In this document: positions 17,267 through 53,443 of the stretch, piece after piece
Layout: each line of letters starts with the position of its first letter
Numbering within the stretch: the stretch's first letter is position 1
NCBI GenBank assembly: GCA_021775965.1
Contig: JAJFGV010000064.1
Location: 62,001 to 126,000, forward strand
Source of the DNA: Alphaproteobacteria bacterium
GTDB lineage: Bacteria; Pseudomonadota; Alphaproteobacteria; Micavibrionales; Micavibrionaceae
Direction: 5' to 3'
DNA length: 64,000 nt
Made by a program: the position numbers and the translations under genes
The notes under the pieces: generated by a model
Database searches by the model: none
Told to the model about the DNA's origin: nothing
Seen by the model: only the letters and a program-made list of their open reading frames with translations

Positions 17267-17351
17267 CGTCATTGCGAGCGCCAGCGAAGCAATCCAGTAA
17301 CTGTAAGAAAGATTCTGGATTGCCGCGTCGCTACCGCTCCTCGCAATGACG
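17267..17351. repeat. Dispersed palindromic repeat, copy A
   Basis: An 85-base imperfect inverted repeat opening CGTCATTGCGAG and closing CTCGCAATGACG, with internal GCAATCCAG/CTGGATTGC arms. It belongs to the same family as the copies at 40069, 49693 and 53356. It lies between the prepilin terminator and the slipin stop. Confidence 0.9.
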
Positions 17352-40032: not shown

Positions 40033-40068
40033 GTTTTTAACCGCGGATCAACGCCGATTGCCGCAGAT

Positions 40069-40153
40069 CGTCATTGCGAGGAGCGATAGCGACGTGGCAA
40101 TCCAGAGGATACAGCGGTAAGACTGGATTGCTTCGCTGACGCTCGCAATGACG
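40069..40153. repeat. Dispersed palindromic repeat, copy B
   Basis: An 85-base imperfect palindrome with the same CGTCATTGCGAG and CTCGCAATGACG ends as copy A. About 29 bases just upstream (40040-40068) share a periodic CCGCGGAT/CCGCAGAT unit with the matching stretch before copy D. Confidence 0.9.
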
Positions 40154-48691: not shown

Positions 48692-49105
48692 ATGGATCTA
48701 CAGAGCAGTATAGAAGAGATGACGGAGAATTTTTCCCTGTTTGATGACTGGGAGGAACGCTATCGGTATTTGATTGATCTGGGTCGGGAACTGCCTGCCA
48801 TGGACGAATCCCTGAAGACGGAAAAGAATTTTGTACAAGGCTGCACATCACGCGTATGGATGCAGGCGGATGTAAAAGATGATGTGTTTCACTTTGTCGC
48901 CGATAGCGATGCGCATATTGTGCGGGGGTTGATTGCTCTGTTGGTGATTGCTTATCAGGGCAAAAAGCTGGCGGAGATTCCGGCTATTGATATTGAGGGT
49001 ATGTTTAAAGAGATTGGGTTGGATCAGCATTTAAGTCCCAATCGTCGCAGCGGATTTTTTGCGATGGTCGAGCGGATTAAATCTCTGGCTGGTAAAAAAC
49101 TCTAA
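48692..49105 (+). CDS. sufE: Cysteine desulfuration protein SufE
   Basis: Accepts sulfane sulfur from SufS for Fe-S cluster assembly. The 137-residue protein has the acceptor C51 in Q-G-C-T-S-R-V-W and the conserved G-L-I-A-L-L region. Other suf genes are not in the window. It converges with the 49102 gene with a 4-base overlap. Confidence 0.95.
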   Translation: MDLQSSIEEMTENFSLFDDWEERYRYLIDLGRELPAMDESLKTEKNFVQGCTSRVWMQADVKDDVFHFVADSDAHIVRGLIALLVIAYQGKKLAEIPAIDIEGMFKEIGLDQHLSPNRRSGFFAMVERIKSLAGKKL

Positions 49106-49791
49106 TCGTTTCCTATTTTCTTAGGCTCTTTAGGTTCCGCAGGTTTTTCTTCTTCAGCGGCCGCAGCCTCTTCCCTCGCTTTTCTTTCTTCTTCGGTGAC
49201 AAAGCGCACGCTCTTAAGGACGGAGCCAAATAATGTATCGGCGGTTTCGTCTGCCTCGCCGATCAGCTCGGCTTCGACGGATAAAATCGAATTGTGTCCG
49301 ATCCAGAGCTGGGCGATGTATATGGTTGGCGTGACGCCAACTTTGCCTTCGCCGACCAGGCCGGCCTGTTTGTAGCCTTCTTCCTCACGAAAGGAAGTAT
49401 CAAAGGTTTTGACAACGCTGCGCTTGGTCATCGCTTTCAATGTCGATTCCATCACCTTGCCGCTATATTGGCTAAAAAGATCCTCGCCGGAGGGGTTGCA
49501 GATAACGCGGAAATTGACGGTTGAAGATAGTTGTTGGACTTGTGTGTAGGTCGCCAAATCATAGCAGCGATCTTTGCTGTCATCTTCGCAGCGCTGCTTG
49601 ACGGAAGGCTCTTCCGGGAAGTCCACCGCGAATTCGCAATGCTCGGGTGAATAGGTGACGGGCTCTTCTGCTATGGCCAGAGAAGGGAGCATCGTCATTG
49701 CGAGGAATGAAATGACGAAGCAATCCAAAGCAACCAGCATAAAGGTTGGATTGCTTCGCTGCGCTCGCAATGACGGGTTAGTTTTATTCAT
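49102..49791 (-). CDS. Exported protein with a repeat-derived signal peptide
   Basis: The 229-residue protein starts at ATG 49791, 8 bases inside the end of hisS. Residues 6-33 are encoded by palindromic repeat copy C, and they supply the basic n-region and hydrophobic core of a signal peptide with cleavage after L-A-I-A (about residue 41). The mature domain has four cysteines and a C-terminal Glu/Ala/Lys/Pro-rich tail. No family recognised. An internal ATG at residue 18 is a possible alternative start and would still use the repeat-encoded core. Confidence 0.7.
   Translation of the reverse strand: MNKTNPSLRAQRSNPTFMLVALDCFVISFLAMTMLPSLAIAEEPVTYSPEHCEFAVDFPEEPSVKQRCEDDSKDRCYDLATYTQVQQLSSTVNFRVICNPSGEDLFSQYSGKVMESTLKAMTKRSVVKTFDTSFREEEGYKQAGLVGEGKVGVTPTIYIAQLWIGHNSILSVEAELIGEADETADTLFGSVLKSVRFVTEEERKAREEAAAAEEEKPAEPKEPKKIGND
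49693..49775. repeat. Dispersed palindromic repeat, copy C (inside a gene)
   Basis: An 83-base palindrome, CGTCATTGCGAG to CTCGCAATGACG, located within the coding sequence of the 49102 exported protein. It is read in frame as residues 6-33. Confidence 0.9.
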
Positions 49792-51163
49792 CTGTTGTCC
49801 AGTTTTCAGGGTCGGCTTTTGATTGCTCGCCGCTCTCCATACATTTTACCTCATGTTCACTGTTGTCTTCAAATGGCGGGAACCAGACATAGGGAATTTT
49901 CTTCTTTTCGGCATAGGCCATCTGGCGTTTTAATTTCGAGCCGCTGTGGAAAAGTTCGACTTTAAACCCGCGTTTGCGCAGGGTTTGGGCTGTTTGCGTG
50001 GCGACTTCGCGGCGCTCGTCACTGGGCAGAACCATGAGGATATCGGCGGGCGATTTTGGTCCAACGGGGAGTTTTCCTTGTTCGTGCAGGCGGGCGAAGA
50101 GGCGTGAAAAGCCAATCGAGATGCCGACACCGGGCAGGGCTTTGTTGATGTAGGAGCTAGCGAGATCATCATAACGCCCGCCCGCGCAAATCGTGCCATA
50201 GCCGGGGTCATCAACGAATGTGGTTTCATAGACCGTGCCGGTGTAGTAATCGAGCCCGCGAACGATAGAGAGGTCGGCGACGACAGCACCAACAGGTAAG
50301 TGCTTTAAAGATTCTAAAACTATGCAGAGATCCCGCAAGCCTTCAATTGTAAGGGGGTTTCTTTCTGCCTGCTCTATAAGTGCGTACAAAACCTTAAGCT
50401 GGGTGTCTATGCTCTCGTCGCTCAAGTTTTTTAGACGCGCTAAAAGCTCAACAAATCGTTCTATTTGTTTTGGCAGACAGTTTGGGTTATGCGCCAGAAT
50501 TTCGTTGTTTAGATTTTTTAAAAATTCTTCAAGTTCCACTTTTTCAAGTTTATCAACAATCCTAAATATATTAGCAACACCATCATCATCAGGAATTTCT
50601 AGTTCATTTTGTATTACGCCCATCAAAATCTTCCGGTTGCTAATCCGTATCTGAATCTTTTCATTCTCCATGCCGGGCAGGGAGGAGAGCGTTTCCCAGA
50701 TGATCGCCGGCATTTCGGCGTCAAAATGCAGCGGCAATGTATCTTGTGCGATCACGTCGATATCGCATTGCGTGAATTCGCGGAAGCGTCCGGCTTGTGG
50801 CCTCTCACCACGCCAGACGCGTTGCATCTGGTAGCGTTTGAAGGGGAAGACCAGATCGTTGAAGTGCTGGGCGACGTAGCGCGCCAGCGGCACGGTTTGG
50901 TCGAAATGCAGGGCTAAACGTGCTTCTTTGCCGCCGTCTTCTTTGTGCAGGCGCTCGAGCACATAGATTTCCTTGTCGACTTCGCCTTTGGCGGTGATGA
51001 CGTCGAGCTCTTCCACGGACGGGGTTTCGATTGAGCAAAAGCCGTAGGATTCAAACACCTTGCGGATATGATCCAGCCATTGCTGCTCAACCAGCCGTGT
51101 TTCGGGCAGCCATTCGGGAAAGCCGCTAATCGCCTTTGGTTTGTATATTTTATTACCGCTCAT
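49784..51163 (-). CDS. hisS: Histidyl-tRNA synthetase
   Basis: Class II synthetase charging tRNA-His. Motif 2 reads R-G-E-R-P-Q-A-G-R-F-R-E-F, the histidine-binding motif includes R-G-L-D-Y-Y-T-G, and motif 3 is G-I-S-I-G-F-S-R-L. The 459-residue protein carries an insert with V-D-K-L-E-K, like the eukaryote-type HisRS branch found in some alphaproteobacteria, rather than the E. coli type. Bases about 50300-50660, covering the insert, are visibly AT-richer than the rest. Confidence 0.95.
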   Translation of the reverse strand: MSGNKIYKPKAISGFPEWLPETRLVEQQWLDHIRKVFESYGFCSIETPSVEELDVITAKGEVDKEIYVLERLHKEDGGKEARLALHFDQTVPLARYVAQHFNDLVFPFKRYQMQRVWRGERPQAGRFREFTQCDIDVIAQDTLPLHFDAEMPAIIWETLSSLPGMENEKIQIRISNRKILMGVIQNELEIPDDDGVANIFRIVDKLEKVELEEFLKNLNNEILAHNPNCLPKQIERFVELLARLKNLSDESIDTQLKVLYALIEQAERNPLTIEGLRDLCIVLESLKHLPVGAVVADLSIVRGLDYYTGTVYETTFVDDPGYGTICAGGRYDDLASSYINKALPGVGISIGFSRLFARLHEQGKLPVGPKSPADILMVLPSDERREVATQTAQTLRKRGFKVELFHSGSKLKRQMAYAEKKKIPYVWFPPFEDNSEHEVKCMESGEQSKADPENWTTDE

Positions 51164-51290: not shown

Positions 51291-51494
51291 ATGTCTATTG
51301 CAAAAGTAACCGAGATTATTAGCGCTTCCCCGAAAAGCTTTGATGATGCTATCGAGCAGGGCATCAAGCGTGCCAATGAAACGCTGAAGAACGTTTCCGG
51401 CGCCTGGGTCAAGGATCAGAATGTTGTGATTGAGGGCGGTTCTATTAAAGAATACCGCGTTGCTCTGAAGATTACTTTCGTTTTGACGGATTAG
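51291..51494 (+). CDS. Dodecin-family flavin-binding protein
   Basis: A 67-residue dodecin that binds or stores flavins as a dodecamer. The S-P-K-S-F-D-D-A-I opening and G-A-W-V-K-D-Q with the flavin-stacking Trp are present. AAGGAG precedes ATG 51291. The gene converges with cobT, and the coding ends overlap by 23 bases. Confidence 0.92.
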
Positions 51495-53316
51495 AATCTT
51501 CTTCGAACAAATCAGCCAGTTGTGAGGCGAGGGCGTTGGCCAGCTCGTCCGCGTCCGCGATTGTTAGCGCTTTGCGGTAGTAGCGGGTGACGTCATGGCC
51601 GATGCCGATGGCGGTGAGCTCGACGTCTGAGGCGGTTTCAATCCATTCAATTACATTGCGAAGATCAAGCTCCAAGATATTGGAAGGATTGACGGAAAGT
51701 GTTGAGTCGTCCACCGGCGCGCCATCGGAAATCACCAGCAGGATTTTGCGGGCTTCGGGGCGTTTGGCGAGGCGGTTGTGGGCCCAGACCAGGGCTTCGC
51801 CGTCGATATTTTCCTTTAGAATGCCCTCTTTGAGCATAAGCCCCAAATTACGGCGCGTGCGGCGCATCGGCGCATCGGCGGCTTTATATATGATGTGGCG
51901 CACATCATTGAGACGGCCCGGATGAAGTGTGCGTCCGTTTTCCATCCAGTGATCGCGGGCGCGGCCACCTTTCCAGGCGCGGGTGGTGAAGCCGAGGATT
52001 TCACTTTTAACGCCGCAGCGTTCCAATGTGCGGGCGACAATATCGGTGGCCATGGCCGCGATTGCGATAGGGCGTCCGCGCATCGAGCCGGAATTATCAA
52101 TCAGGATTGTCACAATCGTATCGCGGAACTCGGTGGATTTTTCCTGCTTGAAGCTCAGCGGCACATTTGGGTTGGCAATCATGCTGGCGAGGCGGGCGGT
52201 GTTTAGGATTCCTTCTTCAGTATCGAATTGCCAGCTGCGTTGTTGTTGCGCCATCAGTTTTCGCTGCAAACGGTTGGCAAGCTTGGTGATGATGGTTTGA
52301 TGGTTGAAAAGTTGTTTGTCGAGCATGGAGCGCAGGCGGGTGAGCTCTTCGGGGTCGGCGAGATCGGTGGCGTTGACCTCTTCGTCAAACGCATCGGTGT
52401 AAATCTTATAGGAGCCATCGGGGCCGGGGATAAAACCTTCGGGGCGGTTGCTCATGGGGTTGGTGGGCATGTCGCCTTCGCCTTCGCTTTGCATGTCGTC
52501 TAGCGCGTCGTCGCTGCCGGTTTCCATGTCGCCGCCTTCGCCATCGTCAAAACCGTCCATGTCCGGGGCCGTGTCGTTGTCGGTTTGTTGGTCGTCGCTT
52601 TCGGTGGTGTCGTCGGTTTCCTGTTGCTCGCTTTCGTCTTCGCCGTGGTCCGTTTCATCGGAGCTGCGCGTTTCCATGTCGAGCGCTTCGATGAGTTTAC
52701 GGACCATGTCGGCGTAGGATTTTTGGTCGTTGATAAGCGGTTTGAGATCGTCAAAGCCGAGGGTTTTCAGTTTTTTATCCAGCCATGGCTGCCAGAGTTT
52801 TGTGAGTTTTTTGGCGGCTTTCGGCGGGGTTTTTCCGGTGAGGGCGCAGCGGGTAAGAATGTGTAGCGCGTCGGCAAGATGCGCGTCCTCGCGCTCTGAA
52901 ATGTCAGTCAGACCCTGACGGGTGTAGCGCTCGGCCAGCACCGCATCGAGATTGCTGGCGACGCCATGCATGGCTGTGACACCGAGGGCTTCGCAGCGTG
53001 CCTGTTCGAGCGCATCAAAAACGGCGAGTGCTTCGGACGCGCGGGGGCGGGCGGCGGCGTGGAGCTTTTTATTATGGTGGGCGATGAACAGCGCATGCGC
53101 ATCGGCGCAGCCACGGATTAAGCGGCGGCTTTTTTGGTTCATATTGTGTTCGGGAACGGGCAAACGCGGGTTTGTTTCGGATGTGACTTTGCCGATCGGT
53201 GGTTCGGCGGCGGAGAAGGTGACCTCGAGTTCCTTGCGGCCGGCGATGGTGCGCAAAGTGACAGCGGTGGTGTTTTTGAATTCTTCTATGTTTCGATTGG
53301 GGGAATCTTTGTTCAT
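51472..53316 (-). CDS. cobT: Cobaltochelatase subunit CobT
   Basis: Partner of the AAA+ protein CobS in cobalt insertion by the aerobic B12 pathway. The 614-residue protein has an N-terminal helical domain, a long acidic D/E/T/Q/M-rich linker (about 215-310) and a C-terminal von Willebrand A domain with MIDAS D-N-S-G-S-M near residue 406. ATG 53316 is chosen; 29 further open codons upstream are encoded by palindromic repeat D and nearby sequence and are not family-like. No cobN or other B12 genes are present. Confidence 0.93.
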
Positions 53317-53355
53317 AAAATTTTTTACCACAGATGAACACAGATAAACACAGAT

Positions 53356-53443
53356 CGTCATTGCGAGGAATGAAATGACGCGGCAATCCAGAGGCAAAAG
53401 CAAAAAGACTGGATTGCTTCAGCCTAAAGGCTTCGCAATGACG
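53356..53443. repeat. Dispersed palindromic repeat, copy D
   Basis: An 88-base member of the family, opening CGTCATTGCGAG and closing TTCGCAATGACG, 40 bases upstream of cobT. The 29 bases before it (53327-53355) carry three near-repeats of ACACAGAT, matching the equivalent position of copy B. Confidence 0.9.

Follow-up and report, generated by a model that had tools for sequence, protein, structure and literature searches.

A dimer of palindromic repeats very probably replaced the leader of a predicted Sec-exported protein encoded in the window, the whole 64,000-nucleotide stretch of Micavibrionaceae DNA analysed here, and was presumably retained through its hydrophobic exit frame. The features that bear on this reading are the following.

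49102–49791, minus strand: gene for a predicted exported protein of 229 amino acids, directly 3' of hisS (open reading frame and orthologues)
49784–51163, minus strand: hisS, with its stop codon at 49784–49786
49669–49791, minus strand: predicted signal peptide, residues 1–41, with cleavage after A-I-A and a hydropathy of 2.62
49693–49775, minus strand: head-to-head dimer of CGTC-tagged palindromic repeats, in frame, encoding residues 6–33
49747–49775, minus strand: first repeat unit, SLRAQRSNP, forming the n-region (nhmmer, 19.9 bits, E 1.6e-5)
49693–49727, minus strand: second, inverted unit, forming most of the h-region (nhmmer, 37.4 bits, E 5.1e-11)
49669–49692, minus strand: kept end of the ancestral signal peptide, MLPSLAIA (DNA alignment; ALPSLAMA in orthologue L003)
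53356–53390, plus strand: repeat unit sharing GGAATGAAATGACG with the signal-peptide copy, its variable part identical to that of the second arm
40069–40104, plus strand: another unit of the same repeat family (genome pattern search)
17316–17351, minus strand: another unit of the same repeat family (genome pattern search)

The open reading frame at 49102–49791 begins with an ATG at 49791 and overlaps hisS by 8 nt, spanning the hisS stop codon, in agreement with a sequence-only reading of this DNA that had placed its start inside the hisS stop region. The 229-residue product, although well conserved, has no relative among Pfam, NCBIfam or PDB profiles, and an AlphaFold model built from two sequences was too poor to use (pLDDT 50.7). 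In the orthologue alignment the mature part carries four invariant cysteines along with invariant Trp and Pro columns, and the cysteines would fit an oxidising compartment and a periplasmic disulfide protein. Sec export of the protein, with cleavage after AIA, is predicted from its sequence.

We searched for the repeat with an nhmmer model of the unit that was built from copies outside gene 49102–49791, the window copy being left out. Both arms match this model, compared with 4.5 bits for the best shuffled region, which bears out the earlier observation that this copy lies in frame within the gene and encodes residues 6–33. The element had been drawn as reaching 49791; its extent is 49693–49775, and the remaining 49776–49791 comprise the native start codon and first codons. 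Read in the sense of the gene, the palindrome opens at 49775 with CGTCATTGCGAG and closes at 49693 with CTCGCAATGACG, a plus-oriented unit preceding a minus-oriented one, and the first unit reads GCAATCCAA at the position of the CCA tail. The whole is predicted to form one long RNA hairpin (-41.1 kcal/mol, z -5.8), and a structure of this strength so close to the start of the coding sequence might reduce translation of the mRNA. The palindrome score alone was rejected as a detector, as it catches fresh dimers and misses decayed ones, including the window copy (z 2.7); the repeat-unit HMM was used in its place for leaders.

Pattern searches of the 2.93-Mb genome recovered 35 exact copies of the CGTCATTGCGAG arm and none of the reversed control, together with 18 full repeat units, four of them in the window. 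All 18 follow the pattern CGTCATTGCGAG...GCAATCCA, in which the CGTC end is followed by AT and the stem, and the unit ends in an unpaired CCA-type tail, GCAATCCA. The same CGTC end with adjoining AT, short stem, CCA tail and mostly head-to-head dimers define the CGTC-tagged repeats of Di Nocera et al. 2013 (PMC3733652), which are common in alphaproteobacteria, are recorded in Micavibrio aeruginosavorus (CGTC-1), have no known transposase and sit mostly downstream of coding regions, with some in frame inside genes, as here. Unlike the present analysis, that survey reports no signal peptides made from repeats. Dimers in the window genome are mostly located between ORFs. The variable core of the second arm, GGAATGAAATGACG, is common only to the copy at 53356–53390, and this identity suggests that the repeat arrived in the leader fairly recently. 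No clear target-site duplication was found in the L059/L060 and L001/L003 alignments, where the flanks have diverged.

Further copies touch other genes of this genome. A second repeat, of the ACCACAGATGAACACAGAT type, adjoins two of the window CGTC repeats at 40034–40082 and 53321–53369, giving composite arrays. The longest ORF reading of cobT (51472–53403) begins within the neighbouring repeat copy; the true cobT start is probably further in, and automatic annotation may assign the gene a false leader. Repeats also lie in frame inside tilS (L093, G000:C17:128501) and panC (L098, G000:C50:17042). These two resemble the Rickettsia palindromic elements (Ogata et al. 2000), which, in the account given in PMC2229807, are palindromes retained in frame in numerous protein genes; they are described as having neutral or slightly harmful effects within proteins, not as export signals.

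To divide the leader between repeat and native sequence, signal peptides were judged by their best 11-residue hydropathy and by AxA motifs, both taken as proxies. The basic n-region of the window leader contains K3, R9 and R12 and no acidic residue before D23. Its h-region reaches 2.62, compared with a mean of 2.65 for repeat-free orthologues and 0.55–1.52 for five cytosolic proteins of the window, and the post-repeat remnant MLPSLAIA reaches 0.6, too little for a signal peptide by itself. The AxA motif stands where repeat-free orthologues have it, with AIA/EEP of the window protein aligning with AMA/AEP of L003 (the slash marks predicted cleavage). As had been proposed, the repeat does encode the n-region with its basic residues and the greater part of the hydrophobic core; the c-region, LPSLAIA/EE, is ancestral.

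Orthologues of the protein were identified in 90 of the 104 family genomes, nearly all straight after hisS. The closest, at 77–79% identity, belongs to Micavibrio sp. DHS20C02 (BQJE01000001.1), which is also the nearest named relative found for the window genome. This orthologue (L003/L091; 77% identity across the matched region) shows a plain leader without a repeat, MKWLSLIIFLALPSLAMA/AEPVTYSP. The DNA of the two aligns on either side of the insertion and LPSLAxA is common to both, so the repeat took the place of the older n- and h-regions, and the older cleavage region stayed. Some 60 repeat-free orthologues begin at the same site with an ordinary signal peptide. The earlier idea that the repeat "created" an export signal is thus not borne out; rather, the repeat replaced one that already existed. 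Mean leader hydropathy is 2.43 in repeat-bearing orthologues, slightly below that of the repeat-free ones, so the exchange of leaders may bring no benefit and simply be tolerated.

The window copy is one of many at this site. Among the 87 orthologues with a readable leader, 24 carry a palindromic repeat there: 11 are of CGTC-a, the window type (L001, L005, L015, L020, L053, L055, L056, L057, L070, L078 and L090), eight of CGTC-1 (L004, L009, L011, L012, L025, L036, L059 and L084), and five are other palindromes (L006, L007, L013, L054 and L038). Shuffled leaders gave nothing below E 1 with the repeat-unit HMM, and the inverted-repeat scores of L006, L007, L013 and L054 lie at least 5 SD above shuffles, that of L038 being weak. 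A tree of the mature part calls for at least 17 presence/absence changes, or 20 with repeat type counted; these totals count gains and losses together, support is weak on several branches, and L001 and L005 may share one insertion. The clearest pair is L059/L060, of the sister, strain-like Micavibrio aeruginosavorus genomes G039 and G038: their mature parts are 92% identical and they share an ATG 14 nt ahead of the end of the hisS stop, but a CGTC-1 repeat is present in one only. Start codon and hisS stop are no more than ~20 nt apart, whether or not a repeat is present. Arm matches number 33 in 12,958 bp of signal-peptide region versus 14 in 186,772 bp of flank, a density ~34 times higher, and the ~535 dimers of the family would, as a rough estimate that assumes an even spread, give less than one insertion per gene junction. 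Two leaders have unusual structures: in that of L007 one palindrome, NHRGHR...SSVRSVV, is set inside another of a different type, VIPSAAKDL...SFAALRMT, both being in frame, and in L015 the hisS gene takes its own 3' end from the first arm of the repeat, the second arm encoding the leader of the gene that follows.

The mechanism differs between the two main repeat types. In nine of the 11 CGTC-a orthologues, what follows the repeat is of insufficient length or hydrophobicity for a core, and whole-leader hydropathy is 1.8–2.8. Of the eight CGTC-1 orthologues, seven have their core downstream of the repeat, which lengthens the n-region or may precede the true start, and these orthologues were rejected as cases of repeat-made cores. 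A signal lying downstream of the repeat, which the sequence-only reading had named as part of the evidence against itself, is therefore untrue of the window copy and true of most CGTC-1 orthologues. The same evidence bears on the proposal that the repeat is only a 5' leader, with translation starting from an ATG at its 3' end (codon 32 or 34). Every repeat ends in ATGAC, giving a start codon in the used frame, the post-repeat parts of CGTC-1 orthologues L036, L011 and L004 have a full core (3.55, 2.64 and 2.32, respectively), and many repeats at the 5' ends of ORFs may fall outside the true gene (PMC3733652). However, such a start would leave the window copy with MTMLPSLAIA, ten residues with a hydropathy of ~1.2, and would leave MTTVAYA in L015 and MTANA in L020, while a start at codon 18 would still draw the core from the repeat. 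As the ATG beside the hisS stop is, moreover, equally placed with and without repeats, we regard a start beyond the repeat as improbable.

The frame in which the repeat is read also favours a coding role for it. All 11 CGTC-a leaders exit the repeat in the AMT phase, and all three entry frames (SLRA, RHCE and VIAR) are used. Of 84 dimers outside these genes, 63 can be read through in the AMT phase, 25 of them with a hydropathy like that of an h-region; 57 can be read through in the RND phase, which is hydrophobic in none, and the third phase contains a stop in every dimer. With the two open phases nearly equal, exit in AMT only has a P of ~0.02 for six independent insertions and ~0.001 for eleven, from which we infer selection on the reading frame of repeat leaders. 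We dropped antisense hydropathy as the cause of the basic-then-hydrophobic order, the arms not being in complementary codon register in the used frame. Repeats within other genes exit differently: that in tilS of the window genome exits as RND, and the cytosolic HisS of six genera (L006, L009, L031, L045, L052 and L078) contains a nearly identical, in-frame, tail-to-tail CGTC dimer of 69 bp, at one site ~600–650 nt before the hisS stop, which is read GLLRDFIARNDVIARS...AIQ in the hydrophilic phase. L040 has a CGTC-1 unit at this HisS position, which is a second recurrent intragenic repeat site.

In-frame repeat leaders, also predicted to be signal peptides, occur in other genes of the family. 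An EnvC-like M23 protein (L113, L118) has one in genomes G097/G098, and its orthologue in G096, at 92% identity, is free of the repeat, its plain leader reading MQRYLLLFLATAAFLPQPVMA; similarly, a family-5 solute-binding protein (L187) has one in G010 and G012, and its 85% identical orthologue in G007 has the repeat-free leader MRYFLLFSFILLLTNTAHA. Others were found in a LysM-M23 lipoprotein with the lipobox VASC (L121), in a secreted protein of G001 (L186) and in a G014 protein (L190) that has two repeat types in a row and that, judged solely by sequence, we would assign to the outer membrane. The query that detected these cases was a peptide in the hydrophobic frame, which makes them unusable for testing the frame. 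Repeats upstream of an ordinary start, as in leuB (L191, L193 and L202) and the window cobT, were excluded from the repeat-derived leaders. Matches from a class-wide search, a sample made with one query, were set aside (G461 and others), since they fall in small ORFs or, in GC-rich genomes, in long spurious frames, and show no clear signal peptide.

These other genes weigh against a slightly less probable alternative, namely that the insertion damaged the leader and that the protein is no longer exported in the window strain, as in a decaying gene. The window leader is indeed atypical: its n-region is 22 residues long and includes Asp23, next to the core. Yet the mature part preserves every conserved column and is 77–79% identical to that of its nearest relative, and the same construction persists in five or more genera that differ widely in depth, as well as in the EnvC-like and solute-binding proteins, which act outside the cytoplasm. 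An assembly artefact or chance resemblance is most unlikely of all: the window does come from a 122-contig draft, and assemblies break at repeats, but same-spot dimers with differing internal sequences and one frame are present in 11 separately assembled genomes, with scores far above shuffles.

Replacement of the leader by the repeat, the reading we prefer, draws on what can be read in the DNA: the presence and frame of the dimer, its multi-copy status, the native start, the repeat-free orthologues, and the recurrence in lineages and genes. A CGTC-repeat dimer would have landed a few nucleotides past the hisS stop codon and, because the next gene starts inside that stop, would have hit the signal peptide a few codons in, displacing its n- and h-regions. 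Translation would still begin at the native ATG overlapping hisS and would pass through the first arm, giving the basic n-region SLRAQRSNP, then the inverted arm, giving the hydrophobic core, and then native LPSLAIA/EE; the insertion would have been kept because it is read in the one hydrophobic exit frame. In 16 orthologues the complete first arm starts 6–19 nt past the hisS stop, and four of the other repeat-leader genes begin on or beside an upstream stop, with the repeat 10–18 nt past it. This spacing suggests a preference for insertion just after stop codons, against which speaks the finding that most copies in the window genome are not close to one. The repeat may simply go to its usual place just past a stop, with overlapping genes converting that into a leader insertion. 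A broader proposal, towards which we remain somewhat doubtful, is that CGTC dimers act as mobile signal-peptide cassettes that repeatedly swap leaders, with tolerance of export helping to decide which coding insertions survive. They could take this role because, in one exit frame, the dimer encodes a basic arm and then a hydrophobic one, and because it is able to insert just past the stop of an overlapping upstream gene.

One signal peptide derived from a mobile repeat is already known. In Yersinia YPO1552, an RU-2/YPAL element forms part of a single predicted signal peptide, and relatives have unrelated signal peptides (Delihas 2007, PMC2759123); the case concerns one gene in one species complex and a different element, without recurrence, a repeat-free close orthologue or a frame rule. 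Whole signal peptides are gained and lost by N-terminal insertion and deletion between orthologues in Enterobacterales, as they are here, and an ISEScan search near N-termini for transposable elements found none (Hoenigschmid et al. 2018, PMC5952966, the most extensive bacterial survey that we came across); unlike the targets of ISEScan, repeats of the present size are not insertion sequences. In a search of literature outside subscription papers, we found no description of recurrent leader replacement by several repeat types, or in several genes, across one bacterial family.

Collectively, these data suggest that small repeats overlooked by insertion-sequence finders recurrently supply predicted bacterial export signals. 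How signal peptides are gained or replaced is poorly known, and three gene families now offer before-and-after pairs of close relatives. Which insertions work, how fast they are refined and whether swaps alter the level of export thereby become directly testable questions. There is also a warning for annotation, in that such leaders resemble the translation of junk repeats and risk being wrongly trimmed or having the gene start moved.
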